DNA from: Cellulomonas fimi
GTDB lineage: Bacteria; Actinomycetota; Actinomycetes; Actinomycetales; Cellulomonadaceae
Assembly (NCBI RefSeq): GCF_028583725.1
Contig: NZ_CP110680.1
Coordinates: 4,402,001-4,466,000, forward strand
DNA: 64,000 bases
Direction: 5' to 3'
The translations under genes were made by a program, and so were the position numbers. This document shows, piece after piece, positions 13,783-26,322 of the stretch (within the stretch, counting starts at the first letter, position 1; each line of letters opens with the position of its first letter). Below the pieces are notes generated by a model. That model ran no database searches. It was not told the origin of the DNA and saw only the letters and a list, made by a program, of their open reading frames with translations.

Positions 13783-14172
13783 TCAGGACGGCGACGAGGC
13801 CGTGAGGCGAGCGGGCTTCCGCCAGCAGTCCCGCGGGATCTCGCCGATACGGTTCCCGAGCCCGTCGCGGACGACCTTCGTGCCCGTGGCCGAGTCCCAC
13901 CGGACGAGGAATGCACCGTGGCGGCGGTAGAGGTCCGCGAGGTACTCCCCGGCGCACGCGACCTCCTCGGTCTTGCGCGCGATGTCCGCGTGGCGCGAGC
14001 GCTCGTACTCACCGATGACGGTCCCGTCGAGGGTGATCTCGAGGCGGAAGAGCGTGTCGGAGACCGGCTGGGCCTCGACGTCGAGGGGCATGGCGCTCCG
14101 ATCGATTCTCGGTCGACGGTCCATCTCGAGCGCGGCCAGGCTATCGGCGCCGCTCCGGGATCCGGTCACCAC
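13783..14172 (-). CDS. Hypothetical protein, second gene of a small operon
   Basis: Up to 129 residues from a GTG at 14172 that overlaps the upstream stop codon; an internal ATG (MPLDVEAQPVSDTLF) at about residue 28 is an alternative start. The core reads LFRLEITLDGTVIGEYERSR, then an alpha-helical CAGEYLADLYRRHG and a C-terminal VRDGLGNRIGEIPRDCWRKP. No family recognised. The overlap with the preceding gene supports a two-gene operon. Confidence 0.55.
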   Translation of the reverse strand: MVTGSRSGADSLAALEMDRRPRIDRSAMPLDVEAQPVSDTLFRLEITLDGTVIGEYERSRHADIARKTEEVACAGEYLADLYRRHGAFLVRWDSATGTKVVRDGLGNRIGEIPRDCWRKPARLTASSPS

Positions 14173-14938: not shown

Positions 14939-15298
14939 TCAGCGGGACCGGCGCGCGACGACGGCGACCAGCTCCCGGCTGCAGCCCAGCGCCGCGGCGA
15001 TCGCGGAGTAGCTCCACCGCGCGGGGTCCTCGGCGCGGAGCTGGAGAACGAGGCGGTCGCGCTCCAGGCGGTACCGCGCGGCCACCTCGTCCGCCTCGGC
15101 AGCCTTGCGATGGAGCTCGCGTGCGCGGGCGGCCCGGGGATCCGAGGTACCCCGGCGGGACGGTCTCGGGGGTGCGTCCGAAGGTGCGGACGCCGGCCGT
15201 GCGGGCGCCGATCGTGCGGACGCCGGCCGTGGGGCGGCCCCGTGATCGGTGCCGCCCCCGGCCGGCGCGTCGGACCGGCGCGGGGCCCTAGAGGCCAC
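14939..15298 (-). CDS. Small coiled-coil/HTH protein translationally coupled to rsr
   Basis: A 119-residue protein from a GTG at 15298, inside the last codons of rsr (11-base overlap). The first 45 or so residues are a Pro/Ala/Arg-rich basic stretch. The C-terminal half is a helix (ARARELHRKAAEADEVAARY, RLERDRLVLQLRAED) leading into a compact HTH, WSYSAIAAALGCSRELVAVV. A basic N-terminus plus an HTH and co-translation with Ro60 suggest a nucleic-acid-binding partner. No family name can be given. Confidence 0.6.
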   Translation of the reverse strand: MASRAPRRSDAPAGGGTDHGAAPRPASARSAPARPASAPSDAPPRPSRRGTSDPRAARARELHRKAAEADEVAARYRLERDRLVLQLRAEDPARWSYSAIAAALGCSRELVAVVARRSR

Positions 15299-16883
15299 GC
15301 GCGAACTCCGTGATGAGCGACGGCACCGCGCCGTCGAAGCCGACGACGTCGAGCATCCCCGCGTCCGACGGGTCGGCGATCGAGAAGCGCGTCGCCGTCA
15401 TGCCGACGACCACGAGCCGCGCGTCGATCCCCGACCGTCGCCGGTACTCGGCGAGCGCCTGGTGCGGGTGCACGTTGCCCGCCCAGGTCTCGTTGTCCGT
15501 GTAGATGACGAACGTGTCGACCTCGGCGCCCTGCTCGCTCGCCCACACCATCGGCAGCGAGCAGTCGGTCCCGGACATCGGCATCGCGTCGACCACGCGC
15601 AGGGCGTCATCGAGCCGCTGCCGCGGCGAGATCGCGAGCGGCCGCAGCGCGCTGTCGTTCCAGCCGCCGCCCAGCCGCGTGGTGAACCCGACGGCGGAGA
15701 CCGCCGGCTCCGTCGCGAGCTGCACCAGGGCCAGCGCGGCAGACGCCTCGCGGGCCGTGATCGGCATGCCCGAGATCGGCGCCGCCATCGACCCCGAGAC
15801 GTCGAGCGCGAGCAGCGTGCGCTTCCCCGAGGGCTCGACGGCCCCGAACGCCGCGTAGAACGCGGCATCGAGGGCATCGGCGACCTTCCGGCTCGGCGAC
15901 CACTCCCCCGCGCCGCTGGCCGAACGCCCGGAGGCGTACGTCCGCTGCGCCACGAGCACGTTGACCGGGTGGACGCGCGCCGACCGCAGCCGGTCGGGGT
16001 CGACCAGCTGCGCGACGACCTCGTCGGTCCGGCCCCCGAGGTCCGGGAGCATGCCGAGCCGCGTGAGCCGGGGCAGCTGGCGCATCAGCGCCGTCTGCGG
16101 CACACCGACGTCGAGCAGCGCGTCCCACACCGCGACCTCGGCCAGCGCCGCGTCGGGCAGCATCTCCCACGACAGCCGGTGCCGCTCGACGAGGTCGACC
16201 CACACCGCGGTCTCCGTGGCCGCCTGCGCCGCCACGAAGCCCTCGACGAGCGACGGTGTCGCGTCGCCGACCGAGCCCCGGACGATCCAGTCGAACGTCG
16301 CCCGCAGCTCCGGCGAGGCCGTCGTCGGGTGAGCCAGGCGCAGCAGGTCGCGGTGCGACCAGCCCTCACGCTGGCGGTACTTGACCGCCTGGTACGCGAG
16401 GGCGTCGGCGTCCTTGGACGTGTACCAGCCGCCGACCGCGCGCCGCAGACCTCGGCCCCAGCCGCGGAACTGCTCGACGTAGCCCGCGAACAGGAACAGG
16501 TGCGTCCCGGTCCGGGCCACGGCCGGCAGCGCCGCGAGCGCGAGCTGTGCCGACTCCGGCACCGACGCGGCGTACGCCAGGGCGAACAGCGCGGGGTTCT
16601 GGCGCGGGGCGACGCCACGGACGGACACGTCGACGATGGTGCTGACCAGCGTCTCGGGGTCCTCGTGGGCCATCCGCCCGACGACCTCGGCGTGCTCCCG
16701 GGCCCGCGCGCGCGGCGCGGCGTAGTACGTGCCGCCGTCCACGCCGAGGGTCAGGAAACGCCGCAGCCGCGCGACGTCGTCGAGCACGAACGCGTAGCCA
16801 CCGGCGGCGTTCAGCTCCTGGCGGGTGTCGGCGCGCTCGCTCTGCGGCGTGCGCCGCAGTCCGAGCGTGCGCAGCACGTCCAT
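15288..16883 (-). CDS. rsr: Ro60-family RNA-binding protein (TROVE + von Willebrand A domain)
   Basis: A 531-residue protein starting MDVLRTLGLRRTPQSER, the same length as the Deinococcus Rsr as I recall it. Residues 15-345 are the TROVE HEAT-repeat ring (YAFVLDDVARLRRFLTLG, then GTYYAAPRARAREHAEVV). Residues from about 350 form a vWA domain with an intact metal site: DVSGS, the Thr in SGTDC, and the Asp in YTDNE. Ro60 binds Y RNAs on the outer face of the ring and misfolded or single-stranded RNA in the hole. In bacteria it works with exoribonucleases in rRNA processing, stress survival and RNA quality control. The ATG at 16883 follows GAGAGGA. An upstream in-frame start at 17255 would run through the Y RNA genes and is not used. 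Four Y RNAs precede it on the same strand. Confidence 0.92.
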   Translation of the reverse strand: MDVLRTLGLRRTPQSERADTRQELNAAGGYAFVLDDVARLRRFLTLGVDGGTYYAAPRARAREHAEVVGRMAHEDPETLVSTIVDVSVRGVAPRQNPALFALAYAASVPESAQLALAALPAVARTGTHLFLFAGYVEQFRGWGRGLRRAVGGWYTSKDADALAYQAVKYRQREGWSHRDLLRLAHPTTASPELRATFDWIVRGSVGDATPSLVEGFVAAQAATETAVWVDLVERHRLSWEMLPDAALAEVAVWDALLDVGVPQTALMRQLPRLTRLGMLPDLGGRTDEVVAQLVDPDRLRSARVHPVNVLVAQRTYASGRSASGAGEWSPSRKVADALDAAFYAAFGAVEPSGKRTLLALDVSGSMAAPISGMPITAREASAALALVQLATEPAVSAVGFTTRLGGGWNDSALRPLAISPRQRLDDALRVVDAMPMSGTDCSLPMVWASEQGAEVDTFVIYTDNETWAGNVHPHQALAEYRRRSGIDARLVVVGMTATRFSIADPSDAGMLDVVGFDGAVPSLITEFARGL

Positions 16884-16913
16884 CGGTCGTTCCTCTCGGT
16901 CGGTCGTCGGGGC

Positions 16914-17019
16914 GGTGGCGGGCGTGGTGCGCGCACCGGGTGGACCCGGCGAACCGGGCTGCCCTCCTCCGAGGGCGTCCAGAGAGGTGAGGAGAACCGA
17001 TCCGCTCCGGCCCGCCACC
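16914..17019 (-). ncRNA. Y RNA 4 (Ro-binding stem, no tRNA-like module)
   Basis: The ends pair perfectly: minus-strand GGTGGCGGGC (17019-17010) with GCCCGCCACC (16923-16914). The 5' strand continues CCGGAGCGGATCGGTTCTCC, matching the Ro-recognition side of the other three RNAs here, and the 3' side keeps CACCACGCCCGCC. The interior holds two hairpins, GCCCUC-GGAG-GAGGGC and a UUCG-capped CCCGG/CCGGG. It ends 30 bases before the rsr start, so it may lie in the rsr leader. Confidence 0.6.
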
Positions 17020-17033
17020 GCTCCGACGTGGGT

Positions 17034-17155
17034 GGAGCGGGCGTGTGGTCGGGTCTCCGGTACGACAGCTCGCGCCGCCGGGCAGTACCCCGAGGGGTCG
17101 GGGGTCGAACCCGCACTGCCATCACCAGGTAACCGAAGACACTCCGGCCCGCTCC
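17034..17155 (-). ncRNA. Y RNA 3 with degenerate tRNA-like module
   Basis: Terminal helix GGAGCGGGC (17155-17147) pairs with GCCCGCTCC (17042-17034). The Ro-site strand reads GGGCCGGAGTGTCTTCGGTTACC. The module keeps a T-arm-like CGGG-UUCGACC-CCCG and, directly after it, a capped acceptor-like hairpin ACCCC-UC-GGGGU, enclosed by GGCAGU/ACUGCC, but no canonical D arm is visible. It is three bases from Y RNA 2, so the two are probably processed from one transcript. Confidence 0.65.
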
Positions 17156-17157
17156 GG

Positions 17158-17296
17158 GGAGGCTCGGGTGGGCGTGTGATGACGCCGGGATCCTGCTCTG
17201 CCATCTGAGCTACGTCACCGAGTGACGGCGGGACTCGAACCCGCGACCTGGCCATTAGGAGTGGTAACCGACAGTCTCCGGCCCACCCGAGTCTCC
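17158..17296 (-). ncRNA. Y RNA 2, YrlA-like, with permuted tRNA-like module
   Basis: Ends pair through UCGGGUGGGC (17290-17281) and GCCCACCCGA (17173-17164), with an imperfect extension. The Ro-site strand is GGGCCGGAGACTGTCGGTTACC. Then comes a canonical T arm, GCGGG-UUCGAGU-CCCGC, followed by an acceptor-like hairpin CGUCAC-UCG-GUGACG, and only then a canonical D arm, GCUC-AGAUGGCA-GAGC. The T-before-D order with a capped acceptor helix is a circularly permuted tRNA, as in bacterial YrlA RNAs. It could be misannotated as a tRNA fragment. Confidence 0.85.
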
Positions 17297-17400
17297 CCGT
17301 GTGCTGTTGTCGTCGAGGACTGTAGGGGTCTACACAGGGCTGCCAGTAGCGCTTTTCGAGAGTGTGTCACCCGGTCGGACAAGCGAGCCGCACGCGCGGG

Positions 17401-17563
17401 GGCCCGGGCGGGCGTGGGGTGGCCGCCGGAGAGCCACCGCCCCTGACGGGACGGTGCGCAGCCCGCTGCTCTGCCGACTGAGCTACGACGTCGAGACGCC
17501 GGAGGGACTCGAACCCTCGACCCGCGGAACCAGATAACCGATGACCTTCGGCCCGCCCGGGCC
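17401..17563 (-). ncRNA. Y RNA 1, YrlA-like, with permuted tRNA-like module
   Basis: A perfect 13-bp terminal helix is formed by GGCCCGGGCGGGC (17563-17551) and GCCCGCCCGGGCC (17413-17401). The Ro-site strand GCCGAAGGTCATCGGTTATC closely matches the CCGAAGG-U-GUUAUC pattern of animal Y RNAs. The module has T arm GAGGG-UUCGAGU-CCCUC, a capped acceptor-like hairpin around GGCGUC/GACGUC, D arm GCUC-AGUCGGCA-GAGC, then CGGG/CCCG and a further GGUGGC/GCCACC hairpin. A -10-like CATACT sits about 8 bases upstream of the proposed 5' end (17572-17577), so this may be the promoter-proximal RNA. Confidence 0.85.
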
Positions 17564-17824
17564 GAGGCGCCAGTATGCCGTCCAGGCCCGCGGCGCGGAC
17601 GCATCGACGCCCGGACGTGCGCCGGCACACGCAAACGGACGCATCGTGGGACAGTCGAAGTGACAACCGTCGATGCCACGGGAGCGCGGCTTGCCGCGCC
17701 CCCGCGGACGATGTCGGGCAGCAAACGTGCGACCCGCGGCTCAGCGACACACGCGCCGAGCGCGGTCAGCACGGCGCTCGTCGTCCGCGGGCGGAGCTGC
17801 TCTGTGACGCCGCGACTCAAGTCG
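17564..17824. other. Intergenic region upstream of the Y RNA array
   Basis: It contains the probable Y RNA promoter at its left edge (CATACT at 17572-17577, minus strand). The rest shows no plausible gene and leads into the IS-end-like repeat at 17825. Confidence 0.4.
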
Positions 17825-17895: not shown

Positions 17896-19239
17896 TCACC
17901 AGTCAATGTGTGCAGTCTGCGAGCCCCTCGGCGAGCGGTCTGCCCTGAGAGCGGTCAGCGTCGCCGCCAGCCCTCGCCGGATGGCGGCTTCCTGCTCCAC
18001 CGGGAACCCACGCTCGAGCACGTCCCCCGCGAACCGTGCCACCCACGGGTTCGGGTCCTGGGCGAGGTTGACCAAAGCCGCCTGTGAGGTCGCGGAGAAC
18101 GCCCGGGTCGGTGCCGGAGCCCACTGCCCTACATCGATGACGGTGGGGCTGTGCCCGGCTCGCAAGGCCGGCGCGAGCCGCCGGGCGATGTACACCCCTC
18201 CCAGGTCGGCGTCCGGTGCGAGCAGGACCGGTATGCCCCGGTCGGCGGCCTCGTGGGTCAACGGCCGGCACACGTCCAGCACGGTGTCGGCTGGCTGCCC
18301 GGCGAACCAGATGACCGCGACATCGCCGAACCGGTCGCACACGGTCTCGGCCGCTTGAAGGTTCTCCACCAGCACCAACGCCGTCGCGTCCGCACCCAGC
18401 CGGGTCCCCCAATCCTTCCCGGTCGCGCGAAGGCGAACCGGACCGGCGAACATCGTCAAGTCCAACCCCGGGACGACAAGCGCCCCACCGAGGCCGACGT
18501 GCGGTGAACGCGCCAGCCCAAGCCGCGTAATCGTCTCGTCACTGACACCGGCGTCCCGCAGCAGCTTATGCGCGTCCTCACGAGCTTTCGTGTTCTCGAA
18601 GTGGACCTGGGAGAAGGCGCGGGGCCCGTCGTGCGCCACCCCGTCGAGCAGATCCCGGCCCGCCGCGAGCAGCACCCGCGTGGTGACGGTGTGCCCAGCG
18701 GTGGCCCGCAGCGCCTGCGCGAGGGAACGGTCGAGGCCCTCCACCTCGTCGGCCAGGTCGGATGCTTCACGTGCCACCGTGAGCCGCTCGTTCTCGCGTT
18801 GCTGGACGCGTTGCTTCCGGTGCTGCGACCACTGCGAGGAGAGCACCCAGCCGGCGGGCCGGTGGTCACGACGTCCTGCCGGTGCGGTGTGCACGTCGAG
18901 CTCGACCACACCGGCGCTGACCAACGCCATCGCTTCGTCCAGCGCACCGGTTCCCCACCGCTTGCGGACCGCGTCCCAGCCGCGCCGGTCCGCTCCGAGG
19001 ACCCATTTCCAGTCCGAGTCGCCCAGAGTGAGGTCGATGGCGTCCCGCGCCGGTGGGTCGTTCGCCACGAGCCATAGCCGCTCCGTCTTGACGCGCCCGT
19101 ACCGGTCCAGGGGGTCGCGACATTCCCCGTTCCTGACCACACGCGGCAGCACCGCACGCACCTGGTCGCTCGGGTCCGCCCACGACACGCGTCGGCGCCC
19201 GTCGGGTAGACGCTCGACGGCGTCCTCGCTCACAGCCAC
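17896..19239 (-). CDS. jetD: JetD-like TOPRIM nuclease of Wadjet-type SMC system
   Basis: A 447-residue protein, last gene of a five-gene operon. The N-terminal 150 residues are winged-helix-like, then a basic helical stretch (QHRKQRVQQRENERLTVARE). A C-terminal TOPRIM-like fold follows, with the acidic Glu in ALVLVENLQAAE and the Asp pair in LLAPDADLGGVYIARRL, the E...DxD arrangement of topoisomerase VI A/JetD nucleases. In Wadjet systems JetD cuts circular plasmid DNA after the SMC motor has extruded it. The GTG start at 19239 overlaps the end of the SMC gene by ten bases. Family membership is by motif and context; the subtype is not determined. Confidence 0.78.
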   Translation of the reverse strand: MAVSEDAVERLPDGRRRVSWADPSDQVRAVLPRVVRNGECRDPLDRYGRVKTERLWLVANDPPARDAIDLTLGDSDWKWVLGADRRGWDAVRKRWGTGALDEAMALVSAGVVELDVHTAPAGRRDHRPAGWVLSSQWSQHRKQRVQQRENERLTVAREASDLADEVEGLDRSLAQALRATAGHTVTTRVLLAAGRDLLDGVAHDGPRAFSQVHFENTKAREDAHKLLRDAGVSDETITRLGLARSPHVGLGGALVVPGLDLTMFAGPVRLRATGKDWGTRLGADATALVLVENLQAAETVCDRFGDVAVIWFAGQPADTVLDVCRPLTHEAADRGIPVLLAPDADLGGVYIARRLAPALRAGHSPTVIDVGQWAPAPTRAFSATSQAALVNLAQDPNPWVARFAGDVLERGFPVEQEAAIRRGLAATLTALRADRSPRGSQTAHIDW

Positions 19240-22200
19240 GGTCGTCCGGCGCGCACCTGCTCACCGAGCAGGTCGACCCGTCGCCGCTCGTCGTCGTACC
19301 CCCACGCCTTGACCGGCTGGTTGTACGGGTGGTCGACGGACGCGTGGGTGAACCACAACAGCTCACGAGAGGCGGTCACCGCGTCGTCGAGCACGGAGTC
19401 CTGGCACACCCCGAGGATCGTGACCCGGTTGCTTTCCGCGACGGACTGCAACGACTTGAGCACGTCGCGCCGGTTCACGTCCCCCAGGGAGTTGCCGAGC
19501 TCGTCGATGACCAGGACCTGCCCGGCGCGCGCGTCCGGGTCACCGGCGATCAACGCGGACAACGTGACGTGGAACGCGGCGACCTTGATCTGCGCACCGT
19601 TGGCGGCCTGCTGGTAGCTGACCATCTTCGCCCCGCGTGCCCGACGCCACTGCGGGGTGACCCGCCACTTCCACGCCCCGGTCGCGGTCTCGGGTCGTTC
19701 GGAGACGACGAGAAGCTCACCACCGAATCCGCCGTGCTGGATCGTCAACGTGTTGAACGCCGTGCTCATCCGCGCGAACCGTGACTCGACGGACCGCTCG
19801 ATCATGTCCTGTACCTCCGTGAGCGAACGCGACGCACCGTGCATCTCGGTGGTGAGCTCCGCCAAGGTCTGCTCGCGGTGCGCTCGGTCACGTTCGATCC
19901 CGGCGCCGATGACCAGGTCACGTTCGGCCGACCCGTCCAACCGGGTCTGCAAGGGCAACGCCAGCTCGGCGAACGACGGCGGGAACGGCTTACCGGCCCC
20001 TTCCTCGCGGCCTTCTTCGGGTTCTAGCTCCGAGCGTCGGCCTTTGATGGCGGCGATGTCGTCGGACAGGTCGGTGTCGTGCCCGTACGCGTCGATCGCT
20101 TCGGCGAGCGCGTCGGTCGCACGGTGACGGATCGTCTCGTGCTTGAGGTTGCGCACGTCCTCAGGTTCGGCGTCGAGAGCGACCTGCGCGTCCTCTACAG
20201 TGCCGCCCCACCCGAGCGTCCAGTACGTGATGTTCAGCTTGTCGAGCCGCGTCTGCACCCGGGCGCGGTCGTCGACGGCGTCGGCGTGCTCCTTCTCGCG
20301 GCCGTTGAGCGCCATCTCGGCAGCCAGGACACGGCTCTGGTGCCCGCTGACGGCCGCGACGGCGACCTTCCATTGCGCTTCGGCGGCCTCGTACTCCGCG
20401 AACGTGGCCGGGCGCGGCTTGGCCGCCTCCTCGAACCGCTCGTGCATCACGGTGATGGCGGCCTCGAGTGCCGCGAGGTCGTGCGCCGCCGTCGCGACCT
20501 CCAACCGCCGCTCCGCCTCGGTCAGGTTCCGCTCCGCGGCGGCGAGCTCGCCAGCCTTGGCGTCTGCTTCGCTCACGGCGGCGTCCAGGGCGGCTTGCGC
20601 CTGGGCGACACGGGCGTTCCTGCCGGTGACGGGTGCGTCGAACCCGCCGACGGTGACGATGCCTGCGTCGAGATCGTGCGTGCGGTGCGGGTCGTGCTCG
20701 TGCCGGGACCGGGCCGCGAGCGTGCTCAGGAACGCACCCAACGGTGCAGCGGACTGCACACCGGCAGGTGCAGCCGCGGTGCGGGTCGCGTCGTCAGCAG
20801 CCACGAGGGTGGTGCCGGGCAGGTGCGCGACCGCACGGACTGCCGCGCTGAGCTGGTCACCGGAAACGACGATCGCGTCGCGCCACGGCCAGAGCAGCGG
20901 CTCCCAGTACGCGCGTGCGGTCTCGTCGAGCGTGACGGTGTCAGCCAGGCCGACGCACCCGACACCGGCGGCTTGCAGCGCGTCGATGACGTTCGTGGTG
21001 TGCGGGCTGCGACCGGTCTTGGCTTGCTCGAGCGTGCTCTCGGCGGCGGCGGCCCGTTCCGCGGCTTGGGTGGCGTGCACCCTTGCGGTCGCGCGCGCGT
21101 CCACAGCGGCGGCCTGCGCGGCGGTGGCGTCCTCGACCGAGGCGCCATCCCACCCGTGCGCGGCGTGCTGCAACGCAGGACGCTTCTCCTCGGCGCCGTT
21201 GATGCGTCCTCGCCACTCGTTGACGGCCGCGTCGATCCGTTCGACGGCACCGCGTGCCTGGTCCATGACATCCTTCGCCTCGCGTTCACGGCGTTGGGCG
21301 TCCTGGTCGTTCTTCACCGCCGTCAACGCGGCCCGCGCCCGGTCAACGTCCTCCTTCGCGAGCCGGATCGTGTCGTTGGCGTCGGCGAGCTCGCCGGTGA
21401 GGCGGGCGTGCTCAGGGACGGCGTCGACGAGCCGCTTGGCGAAGTGCAACCGCCACATGTGCGCCCCGTACGTCAACCGTTCCCGGGCCTTGGTCCGGTT
21501 CCGGATGGCAGCCAGCTCGGCGTCCTCGATCCGCCGCTGTTCCTGGTGCTTGAGGCGCGCCTCGATGAGGGCACGCTCCATGCCGGCGAGGTTGTTGCGC
21601 TGGTCCTGCTCGGCGTCAAACGAGTGCCGCATCCCGGCCAGGTCGATGAGGGCCTGCCCGATGTCGGTCGGGCTCATGTCCGTCATCGCCTGCGACAGCA
21701 GCGACGGCGCGGCCTTGCGCAACGGGGTGTCCAGGAACGCCAGGCACCGGGGCGCATCGCCGTACAGCGTCTCGGACATCTTGCGTGCCGAGCACTGCGA
21801 CGACTTCGGCAGCGACGCCCACAGGTCGTTCGCCTGCTTGTACCGGGCGTCGTCGTTGTCGGCGTCCACGACAACGATGCCCCGGGTGGAGCGCACCGTC
21901 AGGTGCGGGCTGGTGGTCTGCAACCGCACCCACACCGTCACCGACGTGTCTGGCATCGGGAAGTCCGGGTCGGCGAACACCCCGATGATGTAGCCGTGGT
22001 CGGCGGAGTACGACACGTCCAACCCGGCCGAGGCCGCCTGGAACAGCAGCCCGGCCGCGAGGGCTCCGCCGTTGATGTCGAACCGCCACTGCGGGTCGGC
22101 CAGCAGCACCGTGACCGCCGCCTGGAAGCTGGTCTTGCCGGACCCGTTGGAGTCACCCTTGGGGCCACGACCGGAGATCGCGATGAACGCCCCGGGCACG

Positions 22201-22322
22201 ATCGGTGTGACGTGCGGGGTGAGCCGGGCGATGTCGATCGTCTGGATGGCGACGAGCTCGCGGCCGCCGATAACTCCCCGGTCGGTGACGGACACCGCTG
22301 ATGTGGCGGTCATCGTGCTCAT
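19230..22322 (-). CDS. jetC: JetC-like SMC/MukB-type ATPase
   Basis: A 1030-residue ATPase. Walker A GRGPKGDSNGSGKTSF is at about residues 50-65. Two long coiled-coil arms (about 255-440 and 575-850, rich in Ala/Glu/Arg heptads) flank a globular hinge-like region (about 455-560, VGCVGLADTVTLDETARAYW). Walker B QVLVIDELGNSLGDVNR is near residue 945. This is the head-arm-hinge layout of SMC proteins, at the shorter end of the MukB/MksB/JetC range. It should form the DNA-loop-extruding motor with the kleisin and KITE subunits encoded just upstream. Its ATG overlaps the preceding stop (ATGA). Confidence 0.85.
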   Translation of the reverse strand: MSTMTATSAVSVTDRGVIGGRELVAIQTIDIARLTPHVTPIVPGAFIAISGRGPKGDSNGSGKTSFQAAVTVLLADPQWRFDINGGALAAGLLFQAASAGLDVSYSADHGYIIGVFADPDFPMPDTSVTVWVRLQTTSPHLTVRSTRGIVVVDADNDDARYKQANDLWASLPKSSQCSARKMSETLYGDAPRCLAFLDTPLRKAAPSLLSQAMTDMSPTDIGQALIDLAGMRHSFDAEQDQRNNLAGMERALIEARLKHQEQRRIEDAELAAIRNRTKARERLTYGAHMWRLHFAKRLVDAVPEHARLTGELADANDTIRLAKEDVDRARAALTAVKNDQDAQRREREAKDVMDQARGAVERIDAAVNEWRGRINGAEEKRPALQHAAHGWDGASVEDATAAQAAAVDARATARVHATQAAERAAAAESTLEQAKTGRSPHTTNVIDALQAAGVGCVGLADTVTLDETARAYWEPLLWPWRDAIVVSGDQLSAAVRAVAHLPGTTLVAADDATRTAAAPAGVQSAAPLGAFLSTLAARSRHEHDPHRTHDLDAGIVTVGGFDAPVTGRNARVAQAQAALDAAVSEADAKAGELAAAERNLTEAERRLEVATAAHDLAALEAAITVMHERFEEAAKPRPATFAEYEAAEAQWKVAVAAVSGHQSRVLAAEMALNGREKEHADAVDDRARVQTRLDKLNITYWTLGWGGTVEDAQVALDAEPEDVRNLKHETIRHRATDALAEAIDAYGHDTDLSDDIAAIKGRRSELEPEEGREEGAGKPFPPSFAELALPLQTRLDGSAERDLVIGAGIERDRAHREQTLAELTTEMHGASRSLTEVQDMIERSVESRFARMSTAFNTLTIQHGGFGGELLVVSERPETATGAWKWRVTPQWRRARGAKMVSYQQAANGAQIKVAAFHVTLSALIAGDPDARAGQVLVIDELGNSLGDVNRRDVLKSLQSVAESNRVTILGVCQDSVLDDAVTASRELLWFTHASVDHPYNQPVKAWGYDDERRRVDLLGEQVRAGRPWL

Positions 22323-22942
22323 GTCAGGGCACCTCCGGAGCGGGTCGCGCGGCGACGCTTGATGGACTCAGCCAACGGCCCGTTCGGTTCTGCGAGCAGG
22401 ACGAGGTCTTGGAACAGGTCTTCTTGGACGCGGGCGGTCAATCGGTGGAACGCCGGCCCGGGCACCAGCCACCGGTTGGTCCCCCACCCGAGGATCCCGG
22501 CCGCCCGCAGGCGCGTGATCGCGGCCCTGGCGGTCGTGTCGGGTAGCTTGCTGCGCGCGATCAACATCTTCGGGTCGACGGGCTCCCCCACGGTCCAGTG
22601 TGCTTCGGCAGGGATGGTCCCTAGAGCGCGCGGGATGGCAACCGACCACAGCAGCACCAGGGTCAGAACGGCCCGGTCGGTGTCGGGCAGCACCCCGATC
22701 CCTCGGCGCGTGAGTGCGTGGCGGGTGGTGTCGTCGTACCCGCTGGTGAACCCTGCGGGTGTTTCCAGCAGCACCCGCCCCGAGGCGGCCAAGGTTCGTT
22801 CCAGGGCGCCGCGAAGGGTCTGGTCGGTCACGGCACGAACGAGGTGCCGGGGTACGGGCTGCTCGGCTTCGTCCAAGATGCGCACGGCGGCGTACACGTC
22901 CTGGCGTTGCGCTTCGGTCAGGTCGTCCAGGTGGGTGCTCAT
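22319..22942 (-). CDS. jetB: KITE/MukE-like winged-helix subunit (JetB-like)
   Basis: A 207-residue protein starting MSTHLDDLTEAQRQDVYAAV. Two winged-helix-like parts are visible: residues 1-70, and 90-170 with ARSKLPDTTARAAITRLRAA then GILGWGTNRWLV as recognition helix and wing. It sits directly before the SMC gene, where jetB/mukE normally lies, and shares ATGA overlaps with both neighbours. MukE-type subunits bind the kleisin and regulate the SMC heads. It looks distantly related to the adjacent 188-residue protein, which makes this operon unusual. Confidence 0.68.
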   Translation of the reverse strand: MSTHLDDLTEAQRQDVYAAVRILDEAEQPVPRHLVRAVTDQTLRGALERTLAASGRVLLETPAGFTSGYDDTTRHALTRRGIGVLPDTDRAVLTLVLLWSVAIPRALGTIPAEAHWTVGEPVDPKMLIARSKLPDTTARAAITRLRAAGILGWGTNRWLVPGPAFHRLTARVQEDLFQDLVLLAEPNGPLAESIKRRRATRSGGALT

Positions 22943-23505
22943 GCGGTGTGCCTCCCCACGGTGGGGACGGCCGGCAGCCGGTGCCAGTGGGCGCGCAACA
23001 GGTCTTCGTCGCGCGCGGGCCACGTCGCGACCAACGGTCCGAGCCGCAACGTGTCCTCACCGTCGCCCGGTTCGATGAGCCCGGCCGCTTCCAGCGTCTT
23101 GAGCGCACCCTTGGCGTGCCGGGAGGCCATCTCGGTGCTGCCGGCATCGTCGGTCGCGGACCCGAGCGTCCCGTACGCCTCCAGCACCTTGGCGCGGGTG
23201 GTCGCCGCCCCGGGGTACAGCGGCTTGTCAGGGTCGGGCCAGCAGCAGCGCACGCACGCGGCCAGGACACCCAGCAGCGGCTTGGACAGCTTGTGCGTTG
23301 TGCGCACCTGGTCCATGCCGTCGCCGAACCACACACCGTCGGTCAACGGGTTCCACCCGAGGGTCACTCGGCCACCGGTGACATCCACGACGGTCCGAGC
23401 GCTGTGCGCGGTGTCGTGGTGCACCTCGTCACCGGCGGGGACCGTCAGCAGCACCCGGGCGGCGGCGACACGTTGCGCGGCGGTCAGCCCGCTCAGGTCG
23501 CTCAT
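22939..23505 (-). CDS. Second KITE/MukE-like winged-helix protein in the SMC operon
   Basis: A 188-residue protein starting MSDLSGLTAAQRVAAARVLL. The C-terminal half carries a winged helix (MASRHAKGALKTLEAAGLIE, then LRLGPLVATW). Its layout parallels the JetB-like neighbour: an LTxAQR opening, a central hydrophobic helix (KPLLGVLAACVRCCW against AVLTLVLLWSVAI), and a ...LxAAGxL... recognition helix. I infer a divergent paralogue, so the complex may use two different KITE subunits. It overlaps both neighbours by four bases. Described Wadjet operons have four genes, so this fifth gene has no standard name. Confidence 0.6.
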   Translation of the reverse strand: MSDLSGLTAAQRVAAARVLLTVPAGDEVHHDTAHSARTVVDVTGGRVTLGWNPLTDGVWFGDGMDQVRTTHKLSKPLLGVLAACVRCCWPDPDKPLYPGAATTRAKVLEAYGTLGSATDDAGSTEMASRHAKGALKTLEAAGLIEPGDGEDTLRLGPLVATWPARDEDLLRAHWHRLPAVPTVGRHTA

Positions 23506-24833
23506 GAGGTCACCACCGTCTCGTCGGTGCGGTCCTGCGGTGCTGGGGTGTCGGCGGCCAGGGCAGGTGCGGCGCGGTGCACGGTGACGGGGCTGAGGTA
23601 GGTGACGGAGCCGTCAGCATCGACGAGCAGCGCGTCGGACATCGTGATCGTGTACGGCTGGTCAGGGTGGGCGTCCAACGCTATGAGGTCCACAACCATC
23701 TGCCCGGCCGCGGGCCACCCGGCACCTTGCAGGCGGCTGGTCAGGTCGACGTCCTGCTGGCCCTGCAACGCCGCTTCAGCGCGTGCGACTCGTTGCGCGA
23801 GGATCCGTTCCTTACGTTCCCGGGCCGCGTCCACAGGGTCGGGACCGGTGTCGATGGCCTCTGTCCGCACGGGCCGTTTACGCACGGGCCGTGGCCGCAC
23901 GGTGTCGAGCAGGTCGAGCACGGCGGCGACGTCCACGGCCGGGTGCGGCGGGTCGAACAGCACCCGCTCGAACGGCACCGCGAGCTCGGTGACGGTGCAC
24001 GTCTGCGCGGCGGTGCGGTACTGCTCGGGGTCGAGCATGGAGAAGTCCCGACGCCGGCCGCTTTCGTCCAGGAGCCGTTCCATCAGGTTCTGCACGGCCT
24101 GGGTGTACTGGGTCGCCTCGAAGATGACCCGGTCCCCGGCCGACGCGAGATCGGGGTGGCGCGTGGTGACCTGATCGATGAGGTGCTTCGCATCGCGCAG
24201 CAACCGGTCGGCGGCACGGTGGTGACGACGCTGCGCGATGAGCTCGGCGTGCGGTTCGTCAGCGACGAGGCGACGCAGGTGCGCGGTGTGGATTGAGAAC
24301 ATCCGGCGGATCTTGCGCAGCGCGGCGCTGACGGTCGCGTGGGTCGCGGTCCCGGCAGTGACGGCGTCCGCGGTCCGATCCAGCAACGTCAGGAGCTCTT
24401 GGACGCCGCCGTCCTCGGCGAGCCGCCCGAACACGGCCAGCGCAGCGGCGGCTTCGGGGTTGAACAGGTACCGCTGCTGGGAGGTCTTGGGCAGGTGCAG
24501 CATCCCCATGCGGATGAACACCCCGATGCGCTCGTCGATGAGCGCGGTGTCGGGGCACACCCGCTTGCACCGTTCGACGAGCTGGGCGCGGGTCAGGCCA
24601 CGGGCGGAGTCGATGTCGCCGTACGCCTCGTACACCTCTTCGGCGATCGCCAGGGCGGTGTCGGTGTCGTCGTGCACGGCGGCAGCGTTGGCCGCGACCG
24701 GCGCGAGGAACGCTTCGAGGCGGGTGCGGTACGCGTCGGAGGGGTCCTCCGCGTCGAACAGCGTGGCCTTCACGATGCTCCTTGGGGTGCCGGGCTGGCG
24801 GTTGAGCTGGAACGTACTGATCGCCTCTGACAC
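23502..24833 (-). CDS. jetA: Kleisin-like JetA subunit
   Basis: A 443-residue protein, first in the operon. The N-terminal 170 residues are helical with an HTH-like stretch (ARGLTRAQLVERCKRVCPDT, then RIGVFIRMGMLHL). A central helical region (AALRKIRRMFSIHTAHLRRL ... ERLLDESGRRRDF) and a long charged helix near residue 345 (AARERKERILAQRVARAEAA) precede a C-terminal 80-residue domain. This matches MukF/JetA-type kleisins in place and layout, though sequence identity cannot be tested here. The GTG start has only a weak AAGG upstream. The five genes overlap throughout, so they form one transcript. Confidence 0.65.
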   Translation of the reverse strand: MSEAISTFQLNRQPGTPRSIVKATLFDAEDPSDAYRTRLEAFLAPVAANAAAVHDDTDTALAIAEEVYEAYGDIDSARGLTRAQLVERCKRVCPDTALIDERIGVFIRMGMLHLPKTSQQRYLFNPEAAAALAVFGRLAEDGGVQELLTLLDRTADAVTAGTATHATVSAALRKIRRMFSIHTAHLRRLVADEPHAELIAQRRHHRAADRLLRDAKHLIDQVTTRHPDLASAGDRVIFEATQYTQAVQNLMERLLDESGRRRDFSMLDPEQYRTAAQTCTVTELAVPFERVLFDPPHPAVDVAAVLDLLDTVRPRPVRKRPVRTEAIDTGPDPVDAARERKERILAQRVARAEAALQGQQDVDLTSRLQGAGWPAAGQMVVDLIALDAHPDQPYTITMSDALLVDADGSVTYLSPVTVHRAAPALAADTPAPQDRTDETVVTS

Positions 24834-25005: not shown

Positions 25006-26322
25006 ATGCCTTGGACACCGCTACACGCCGCCTTGGGTGAGGCCGAGCCAGTCCTCGATTACGCCTTGTTCGAGCGTGCGTGCCAGGCTCGAACGCTCGA
25101 GTCAACCAATCTCGACTGGAAGCGTGCGCTGCCACTCTCACCGGCACCGGAGGCCGGCAAGCAGGCACAGGAACTCGAGCTCGCCAAGGACATCGCGGCG
25201 CTGGCCAACAGCGGCGGCGGGATGATCGCGTACGGGGTGGTCCAGAAGGGCGGCAAGGAGGGATACCCCTCTGCCGCCGAACGCATCGCGCCCGTCGGCC
25301 CCCTGGACGAGGGCACTCTGAGGGACATTCGGCGAGTGGCGGGCATCCTGGTCTATCCACCGGTCACCGGGCTCGAACTGATACCGGTGACCGCCGCACC
25401 AGACGACGACATGGGAGTGCTCGCCCTGCTGGTCCCGGACAGCCCTGAGACGCCACACCTCGTGCATCCGAAGGCTGGTCAGCGAGACTGGTTCGTCGCC
25501 CCCTACCGCGACGGGCCGGAGACGGCGTGGATGGTGGAGCGTCAGATCGCCACCGCGTATGTCGCGCGCGAGGCGCGCCGGCGCCAGGGGCAACAGGCCT
25601 TCGACGAGCGCTTCAACGGGTTCGTCGACTCGTTGCCCGGCGGCGACTCGACCTGGGTCGTCGCCTTCGCGGTGCCAGACGTTCCACTTCCCCGACCGCG
25701 AGACCTTGGTTTCTCGACCGCCCACAGGATCATCAGCCGTGCCTCGGACACCCGCCCGCTTGTCAGCTCGTTCGGACCACTAGAACTCACGGCCGCCGCC
25801 GCCACGCGACGAGGTCTTCAGCGGTTCGTTCGACAGGCGCAGCGCGCCCTGACCGCGGGCGGCCTGGACGCGGCCCCCCGTGCGCGGGTCGAGCTGCACG
25901 GCGACGGCAGCGTTGCGGTTGCATTCACACGCGACGGCTACATCCCGGCCGAAGGGCGGGCGCGAGGGCAGGTCGCCCTCGACGACTTCGAGGCGGTGGC
26001 ACGCGACCTGTTCGCGTTGCTGTGGGAGGCGCGGGTGCGCCTGCGGGTCACGAGCGACTACATCGCCCGCATAACCGTGACTCCGACCACTCAAGTGTTC
26101 CGCGTCCCTAGCCAACAGCTGGCAGGGGCTTACGAAGCCTTCAACGAGGCGGGCCGGGTCTACGGGTACGGCCCGGTGTCCGGGCCGATCGTCGCGTCCG
26201 AAGGGCTGGAGGGAGCCCTTCGGACGTGGTTCGACGTCGCCAACGACGCCATCAACCAGACCGGGTACACCTGGCCGCTTGATGCCAGTCACGTGCTGCT
26301 GGAGATCCAGCTGGCCGACTAG
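25006..26322 (+). CDS. AlbA_2/Schlafen-type putative DNA/RNA-binding protein
   Basis: A 438-residue protein starting MPWTPLHAALGEAEPVLDYA. Residues 28-110 fit an AlbA_2 (divergent Schlafen AAA_4) domain: LESTNLDWKRALPLS, then ELAKDIAALANSGGGMIAYG, with the ESxxLDxK and NSGGG motifs. Residues 110-170 continue the fold. The C-terminal 250 residues are not recognised. AlbA_2 proteins are common in defence islands, some as nucleases or regulators. It is convergent with the methylase/helicase operon and divergent from the SMC operon. A role in either system is inferred only from position. Confidence 0.75.
   Translation: MPWTPLHAALGEAEPVLDYALFERACQARTLESTNLDWKRALPLSPAPEAGKQAQELELAKDIAALANSGGGMIAYGVVQKGGKEGYPSAAERIAPVGPLDEGTLRDIRRVAGILVYPPVTGLELIPVTAAPDDDMGVLALLVPDSPETPHLVHPKAGQRDWFVAPYRDGPETAWMVERQIATAYVAREARRRQGQQAFDERFNGFVDSLPGGDSTWVVAFAVPDVPLPRPRDLGFSTAHRIISRASDTRPLVSSFGPLELTAAAATRRGLQRFVRQAQRALTAGGLDAAPRARVELHGDGSVAVAFTRDGYIPAEGRARGQVALDDFEAVARDLFALLWEARVRLRVTSDYIARITVTPTTQVFRVPSQQLAGAYEAFNEAGRVYGYGPVSGPIVASEGLEGALRTWFDVANDAINQTGYTWPLDASHVLLEIQLAD

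Follow-up and report, generated by a model that had tools for sequence, protein, structure and literature searches.

Four Y RNA-type elements of three structural kinds upstream of a Ro60 gene in Cellulomonas fimi, with a candidate operator and regulator

Background

Why one Ro60 protein needs several Y RNAs is, as far as we know, not settled. Humans have four. A locus of Cellulomonas fimi raises the same question for a bacterium: in a stretch of 64,000 nucleotides of its chromosome (hereafter the window), an earlier note made from the sequence had pointed to four Y RNAs in tandem directly upstream of a bacterial Ro60 gene, and had supposed that they might give Ro60 several different tethers. 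Are these elements Y RNAs, how do they differ from one another, and what may control them?

Several bacterial systems are described in those parts of the literature on which the comparison draws. YrlA, a bacterial Y RNA with a permuted tRNA-like domain, is reported from Salmonella and Mycobacterium smegmatis (PMC4726728, PMC8394870), and this domain carries modifications like those of tRNA (PMC8394870). In the Deinococcus complex RYPER, a Y RNA links Rsr with PNPase and directs the latter to structured RNA (PMC4726728, PMC7790460). Salmonella has an rsr-yrlBA-rtcBA operon with RtcB and RtcA under the control of RtcR (PMC7790460). Near the Rsr homologue of Listeria phage CKA15, three highly transcribed regions within 2 kb were suggested to be Y RNAs (PMC12282133), and yrlA is listed among the presumed horizontally acquired RNAs of some mycobacteria (PMC9569102). 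Among the largely open-access papers that our literature search covered, none was found that deals with arrays of Y RNAs or with a Y RNA operon regulator in Actinobacteria. What is added here are the three structural kinds of element, a blind spot of Rfam and a candidate operator-regulator pair.

Four elements with paired ends upstream of rsr

The gene and the elements, all on the minus strand, are arranged as follows.

15288..16883, minus strand: rsr, bacterial Ro60 (531 aa, TROVE + vWA), assigned by Pfam and PDB homology
about 16905..17028, minus strand: Y4, 124 nt (model match 110 nt, 16912-17021), without a tRNA-like part
17034..17155, minus strand: Y3, 122 nt, T-arm (loop TTCGACC), no D-arm
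about 17155..17299, minus strand: Y2, 145 nt (model match 131 nt, 17162-17292), permuted tRNA mimic
17401..17563, minus strand: Y1, 163 nt, T-arm, acceptor-like hairpin and D-arm (permuted tRNA mimic), with a terminal helix and a match to model R1
17572..17577, minus strand: CATACT, presumed -10 box of Y1, found by eye 8 bases 5' of the Y1 5' end

Rsr matches the Pfam families TROVE (4.7e-42) and vWA_Ro60 (1.7e-62) and, among PDB structures, the solved Rsr 2nvo (7.6e-116), with clear homology to vertebrate Ro60 as well. The elements all lie within 680 bases 5' of its start codon. Y4 ends 21 bases from this codon; the 30 bases first given, counted from a Y4 end at 16914 to the ATG, are correct. 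Each element has a terminal helix, in which 12 of 12 (Y1), 17 of 18 (Y2), 8 of 8 (Y3) and 17 of 18 (Y4) positions pair, and the outermost base of the Y2 helix is the first base of the Y3 helix. The description in the earlier note thus held for the position of the four elements and for their shared strands, GGGCCGRAG-N4/5-TCGGTT on the 5' side and ACGCCC on the 3' side, which are present in all of them. Its paired ends of 9-13 bp stand as the inner parts of the helices, which in Y2 and Y4 reach further.

The presumption that CATACT is the -10 box of Y1 comes from its sequence and place: it is found at the same Y1 position in four relatives (loci L004, L005, L011 and L013), and CACACT, CAGACT and GACACT occur 6-8 bases 5' of Y1 in L014, L015 and L016.

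These features are far from what chance would yield. The 5' strand written as GGGCCGRVGN4TCGGTT has three sites without mismatch in the 4.49-Mb genome, namely Y1, Y2 and Y4; Y3 has one extra spacer base. A detector that combines both the 5' and the 3' motif with a minimum of 7 pairs returned 172 elements in the 81,784 upstream bases of 84 rsr loci. It gave no hit on the reverse strand, a mean of 0.35 per dinucleotide-shuffled set and 9 hits within 876,556 bases of control sequence (rsr and its downstream region, both strands). The z-scores of the fold energies are -3.2 for Y1, -4.6 for Y2, -2.9 for Y3 and -5.1 for Y4.

A covariance model, R1, was trained on RNAs of the Y1/Y2 type. Y1 (86.2 bits, E 2.4e-16) and Y2 (127.2 bits, E 4.6e-25) were themselves in the training set, whereas the classes of Y3 (42.7 bits, E 4.2e-7 in the window) and Y4 (37.7 bits, E 4.8e-6 in the window) lay outside it. 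With strict filters, the matches in the whole genome at E <= 0.001 are exactly Y1 to Y4. A second model, R2, gives 101 bits for Y4, a member of its training set, and 48.9 bits for Y2, which was outside it.

Rsr itself is not widespread: of 396 genomes drawn from the phylum, 4 have a match, two of them full-length, and one of these two is the window's own. Within the genus, rsr is found in 10 of 81 genomes (the window's genome included), and strong R1 matches (E 3e-17 or better) occur in exactly these ten. The claim of Y RNA-type elements directly 5' of a real Ro60 gene is borne out. Weak partial matches (E 9e-5 to 3e-4, strict filters) are seen in three of the other 71 genomes, and three of the ten rsr genomes carry such matches elsewhere too.

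Compensatory changes and three structural kinds

The pairing of the ends was tested on elements picked by motif only. A 3' motif was found for 145 of 186 5' motifs, which made these scorable. At least 6 of the 7 outer pairs formed with the element's own partner in 103 of 145 cases, and with a partner from another element of the same locus in 34 of 268; the mean number of outer pairs was 6.03, compared with 3.93 (sd 0.09) for shuffled partners.

By motif, the 172 detected elements fall into 74 with T-arm and D-arm, 49 with T-arm only, 48 with neither and one with D-arm only. The T-arm is thus present in 123 and the D-arm in 75, against 0.15 and 0.05 per shuffled set. In the window, Y1 and Y2 carry both arms, Y3 the T-arm only and Y4 neither. 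Y1 and Y2 accordingly have a YrlA-type domain, a permuted arrangement of T-arm, hairpin and D-arm, which Y3 and Y4 lack.

The alignments of three classes share one layout, in which the terminal helix is followed by a bulged CCG/ACG region, then by an upper helix that closes with TCGG/CCGG, and last by the inner domain. In the class with both arms (41 of the 74 sequences aligned), 95.2% of cells are paired, double changes occur in 23 of 36 pairs, and the covariation score is 0.488, compared with 0.165 for shuffled and at most 0.112 for slid alignments. In alignment A1, the inner GGG/CCC pairs, the T-loop and the D-arm letters belonged to the selection criteria, while the upper stem and the hairpin between T-arm and D-arm lay outside them. 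For the T-only class (27 of 49 aligned) the score is 0.422 against 0.186 shuffled and at most 0.130 slid, with a structure that was written from Y3 and hence leans towards the Y3 sequence; it replaced the structure proposed by RNAalifold, in which the 5' strand was paired with itself. The Y4-like class (16 of 49 elements without T-arm) scores 0.229 against 0.112 shuffled, and one of its five measures, pair types, is not above the shuffles. Covariation of the terminal helix among relatives, the lack of which would have counted against the Y RNA assignment, was found, and compensatory changes are abundant.

A reading of the elements as decayed tRNA genes or as a repeat derived from tRNA, with no role related to Rsr, is barely credible: the T-arm and D-arm are tRNA-like and the Rfam tRNA model reaches 15.6 bits over Y2 (threshold 29), but the T-arm lies 5' of the D-arm in all 74 elements that have both, ARAGORN calls no tRNA in the window, the compensatory changes fall in a terminal helix of an architecture foreign to tRNA, and the strong matches in the genus are confined to rsr genomes, so that arm order, covariation and the absence of an ARAGORN call exclude tRNA remnants, and covariation and the link to rsr in our view already refute this reading.

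Rfam thresholds and known relatives

In searches with Rfam models, none of the four elements reaches a Y RNA or YrlA threshold. YrlA (RF02553), whose gathering score is 69, gives 46.6 bits for Y2 and 40.8 bits for Y1, with an alignment confined to the tRNA-like core. The Deinococcus Y RNA (RF01053) gives 23.6 bits over Y3 at a gathering score of 80. The resemblance of the Y1 5' strand to animal Y RNAs, which the earlier note had seen, found no echo in the vertebrate Y RNA model, which has no match at E <= 10 in 16900-17580. In 16 relatives, no Y RNA or YrlA was called at the gathering thresholds. Since these thresholds miss the Y RNAs of the window and yield no call as Y RNA or YrlA in the 16 relatives, surveys based on Rfam would undercount bacterial Y RNAs. 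The two calls that were obtained among the 16 relatives are a tRNA and the nematode small-RNA family RF01656, which lies over a Nocardia Y RNA (L049, 3765-3870; 38.9 bits, threshold 38) and hints at a shared helix on the Ro side.

The likeness to YrlA consists in the position beside rsr, the long terminal stem, and a shared order of T-arm, hairpin and D-arm; the differences are that Y1 and Y2 score below the gathering score and that Y3 and Y4 have no D-arm. With the Y RNA of Deinococcus radiodurans, Y3 shares a 5' strand (GGGCCGRAG...CGGUUAC) and a terminal helix that can be aligned, whereas its inner domain is a different one. Vertebrate Y RNAs are partners of Ro60 and, as here, occur as several different RNAs per genome, while the tRNA-like domains of the window elements set these apart.

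Two further systems also have several known or putative Y RNAs. In the Salmonella rsr-yrlBA-rtcBA operon, a Ro60 gene is accompanied by at least two of them, but in C. fimi there are four of them, the candidate regulator is another one, and RtcB lies 485 kb from rsr (3932105-3933208 of the chromosome). Due to this distance, an RNA-repair operon that includes Ro60 was rejected as a description of the locus. Listeria phage CKA15 has more than one putative Y RNA close to a single Rsr gene and on the same strand; there, the Y RNAs are a suggestion from transcription (PMC12282133). The genome of the window has one PNPase gene above the family cut-off, so that the genes for both proteins of RYPER, Rsr and PNPase, are present.

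Copy number and orthology

The 84 loci comprise the window, three genus genomes (L003-L005) and the best 80 of 151 relatives of the window Rsr; being drawn from the best-ranked relatives, they are close kin by choice. L001 (the window's own genome) and L002, L006, L007 and L008 (the same records as L011, L012, L013 and L015) were left out, and L009 and L010, which have a divergent rsr, were examined apart. With a strict count, four elements were detected in 16 loci, three in 11, two in 29, one in 17 and none in 11. Among the last are L037 and L053, with less than 120 bases of upstream sequence, and the distant loci L084 and L087-L090. These counts are lower bounds: inspection by eye revealed additional elements in L017 and L021, and 5' motifs suggest undetected ones in L028 and L039. 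A fifth element considered in L029 was rejected, as it has a 5' motif match only and the detector gives four. With three or four elements in at least 27 of 84 loci, an array of four is ordinary in this clade, contrary to what had been supposed.

The comparison of rsr upstream regions in related Cellulomonas that had been proposed as a check was carried out on ten Cellulomonas-type loci (the window, L003-L005 and L011-L016). Seven have four elements, in one case with a truncated Y3. Y2 and Y4 are present in all ten. A deletion has removed Y3 from L005 and L012, L011 has a truncated Y3, and L003 and L012 lack Y1 or retain a remnant of it. The losses of Y3 and Y1 in close relatives imply that not all four are needed. 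In L005 and L012, a short remnant of the Y3 terminal helix is seen about 145-170 bases 5' of rsr; in both, Y3 looks as if it had been lost by recombination between the stem ends.

All four elements of the window match those at the same positions in L014 and in L016, with scores of 0.51-0.81. The paralogues in the window score 0.14-0.30 among themselves, which places the divergence of the four before the splits from L014 and L016. One-to-one positional orthology is weaker outside the Cellulomonas group. In comparisons with Propionicimonas-type loci (the window with L024, L026 and L029, and L016 with L026), Y4 matched by position in four of four, Y2 and Y3 in three of four, and Y1 in one of four. 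The window matches Arachnia L035 in one of four positions, while L024 matches L035 in three of four; for Nocardia, the values are one of four (L045) and none of four (L049). Upstream of the divergent rsr of L009 and L010, the core of a second Y-like element is altered and reads GCGGGTCG in place of GCGGGCCG.

The arrangement next to rsr could also be read as a leader: the elements would be modules of the rsr 5' UTR through which Rsr binds its own message and represses its translation, and free Y RNAs would be by-products. In keeping with this, Y2 to Y4 lie nearly end to end, no promoter is seen by eye between Y2 and Y4, and Y4, 21 bases from the start codon, is near the presumed ribosome site. 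However, the last detected element and rsr are between about 18 and more than 80 bases apart, depending on the locus, and a variable distance between Y4 and the start does not favour autoregulation that acts via a fixed distance. Moreover, Y1 lies about 100 bases 5' of Y2 and has its own -10-like box, and simple feedback needs no conserved tRNA-like domains inside the elements. We therefore regard a leader as improbable. That the locus is a Ro60-Y RNA operon, whose Y RNAs would be bound by Rsr, appears to us distinctly likely.

A palindrome and a small protein that occur together

Three further features are needed to describe the presumed promoter and its candidate regulator.

17321..17334, minus strand: palindrome TGTAGACCCCTACA (TGTA-N6-TACA), candidate operator at the presumed Y2-Y3-Y4-rsr promoter
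17319..17324, minus strand: TACAGT, -10-like box, overlapped by the palindrome
14939..15298, minus strand: ORF119, small protein and candidate regulator, whose start overlaps the end of rsr by 11 bases

The palindrome TGTGTAGACCCCTACA begins 37 bases 5' of the outermost pair of Y2 and overlaps the -10-like box. It is the sole match in the genome at up to two mismatches, and it is conserved letter for letter in loci of several genera. In six Propionibacteriales-type loci the palindrome precedes the first Y RNA and has a TTGAC box 5' of it; the centre of the palindrome is changed in L025. ORF119 lies directly 3' of rsr and is kept in many of the loci with the palindrome. Within the genus it is found in 8 of 81 genomes, which are those with a close rsr. 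The loci with a divergent rsr (L009, L010) have Y RNAs and neither ORF119 nor the palindrome.

Using a first pattern, TGTAG-N4-CTACA with at most one mismatch, 25 of the 84 loci had both palindrome and ORF119, three the palindrome only (L079, and L033 and L038, in which the contig stops after rsr), seven ORF119 only and 49 neither. As promoters with ORF119 only contained variants such as TGTAA-N4-TTACA, the pattern was widened to TGTA-N6-TACA. This is found in 30 of 31 loci with ORF119 and in none of 49 without it, counts for which the pattern was generalised after viewing the same loci, with only L009 and L010 outside that set, and which do not include L033 and L038 (both with the palindrome) or L037 and L053 (too little upstream sequence). 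The one ORF119 locus without it, L016, differs by one mismatch. No TGTA-N6-TACA was found in 272,374 downstream bases.

In 25 of 30 loci the palindrome lies 16-55 bases 5' of a detected Y RNA. Of the other five, L025, L039 and L040 have the next Y RNA 166-192 bases away, L031 has no detected element, and L046 has an exact match between Y RNA and rsr. The half-sites are kept and the centre varies. On a quick tree of the 84 Rsr proteins, ORF119 requires seven changes, at least four of them on supported branches, and ORF119 and the palindrome change together in four of four independent pairs on supported branches; with this small number of pairs, a sign test gives p 0.125.

For ORF119 itself, the predicted model has a disordered N-terminus, and one long and two short helices whose order resembles a helix-turn-helix, with a mean pLDDT of at least 95 from residue 61 on. 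The nearest folds are mostly DNA-binding domains with weak scores, and the mitoribosomal protein mS109 is one of them; it is also among the weak sequence matches. Foldseek gave no match for ORF119 below E 0.29, and a profile search of solved structures gave none below E 0.14. The mitochondrial ribosomal family MRP-L20 is matched by 25 of 25 ORF119 members at E <= 0.1, the ORF119 of the window scoring 27.3 bits (cut-off 30.4), and many of the listed homologues carry MRP-L20 as a precomputed domain. Among the 120 homologues listed out of 570, the readable names are hypothetical protein, uncharacterized and, once, homeodomain-like.

Palindrome and ORF119 need not be partners. ORF119 might do another job, such as RNA binding in the Ro60 particle, and the palindrome be read by another factor, as the MRP-L20 matches, the appearance of mS109 among the weak matches and the small number of independent events on the Rsr tree would allow. 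Against this stand the spacing of 16-55 bases to a Y RNA in 25 of 30 loci, the half-sites kept around a varying centre, the lack of the palindrome wherever ORF119 is absent in every independent pair of the tree, and nearest folds that are mostly DNA-binding domains. We hold such separate roles to be possible, though the less probable case, and lean towards ORF119 as a regulator of the Y2-rsr promoter that acts through the palindrome.

A working model of the locus

The following scheme would accommodate these findings. Y1 is probably transcribed from a promoter of its own, and Y2, Y3 and Y4 probably share one promoter with rsr and ORF119; the Y RNAs would then be cut out of the transcript. Rsr would grip each of them by the conserved terminal helix, with the inner domain turned outward. 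These outward domains differ, as Y1 and Y2 mimic the elbow of tRNA, Y3 has the T-arm only and Y4 neither arm, and different RNAs may thus join Rsr to different partners. In line with proposals made for YrlA, the tRNA mimics might bring in PNPase or else compete with enzymes that bind tRNA. ORF119 would read the palindrome over the -10 box, and the promoter would probably be held down until a stress signal arrives.

The idea of several different tethers for Ro60 gains plausibility from the three structural kinds, from which we infer it. In a bolder version, Ro60 of Actinobacteria would serve as a hub for three kinds of RNA adaptor that can replace one another and each bring in a different partner, while the undescribed ORF119 family would switch the whole set together via TGTA-N6-TACA at the Y RNA promoter. 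This version is speculative, and we consider it rather unlikely as a whole.

In a culturable genus, the locus brings distinct Y RNAs together on a short stretch of DNA, apparently as a single operon. Due to this compactness and to the natural relatives that miss one or two of the RNAs, the role of each can be tested by simple deletion. A candidate regulator with its operator would in addition provide a handle on the timing of Ro60 particle production.

Neighbouring genes

The array is adjoined by a block of four genes on the minus strand (17896-24833), for two of which PADLOC gives weak matches, to JetD (5e-6) and JetC (3.8e-5) of Wadjet; the other two have no PADLOC match. Judged by these sequences, the block is perhaps a divergent Wadjet-type system. 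A block of this kind was seen in no locus of a relative, where 1.5-4 kb upstream of rsr were covered. Beside it, a protein encoded on the plus strand (25006-26322) has a borderline match to the Schlafen domain AlbA_2 (24.9 bits, cut-off 25.3). On the 3' side of rsr lies an ORF of 129 aa and unknown family (13783-14172, minus strand), a relative of which, 78% identical, is found 5' of rsr in Cellulomonas phragmiteti (L011, 2870-3193).
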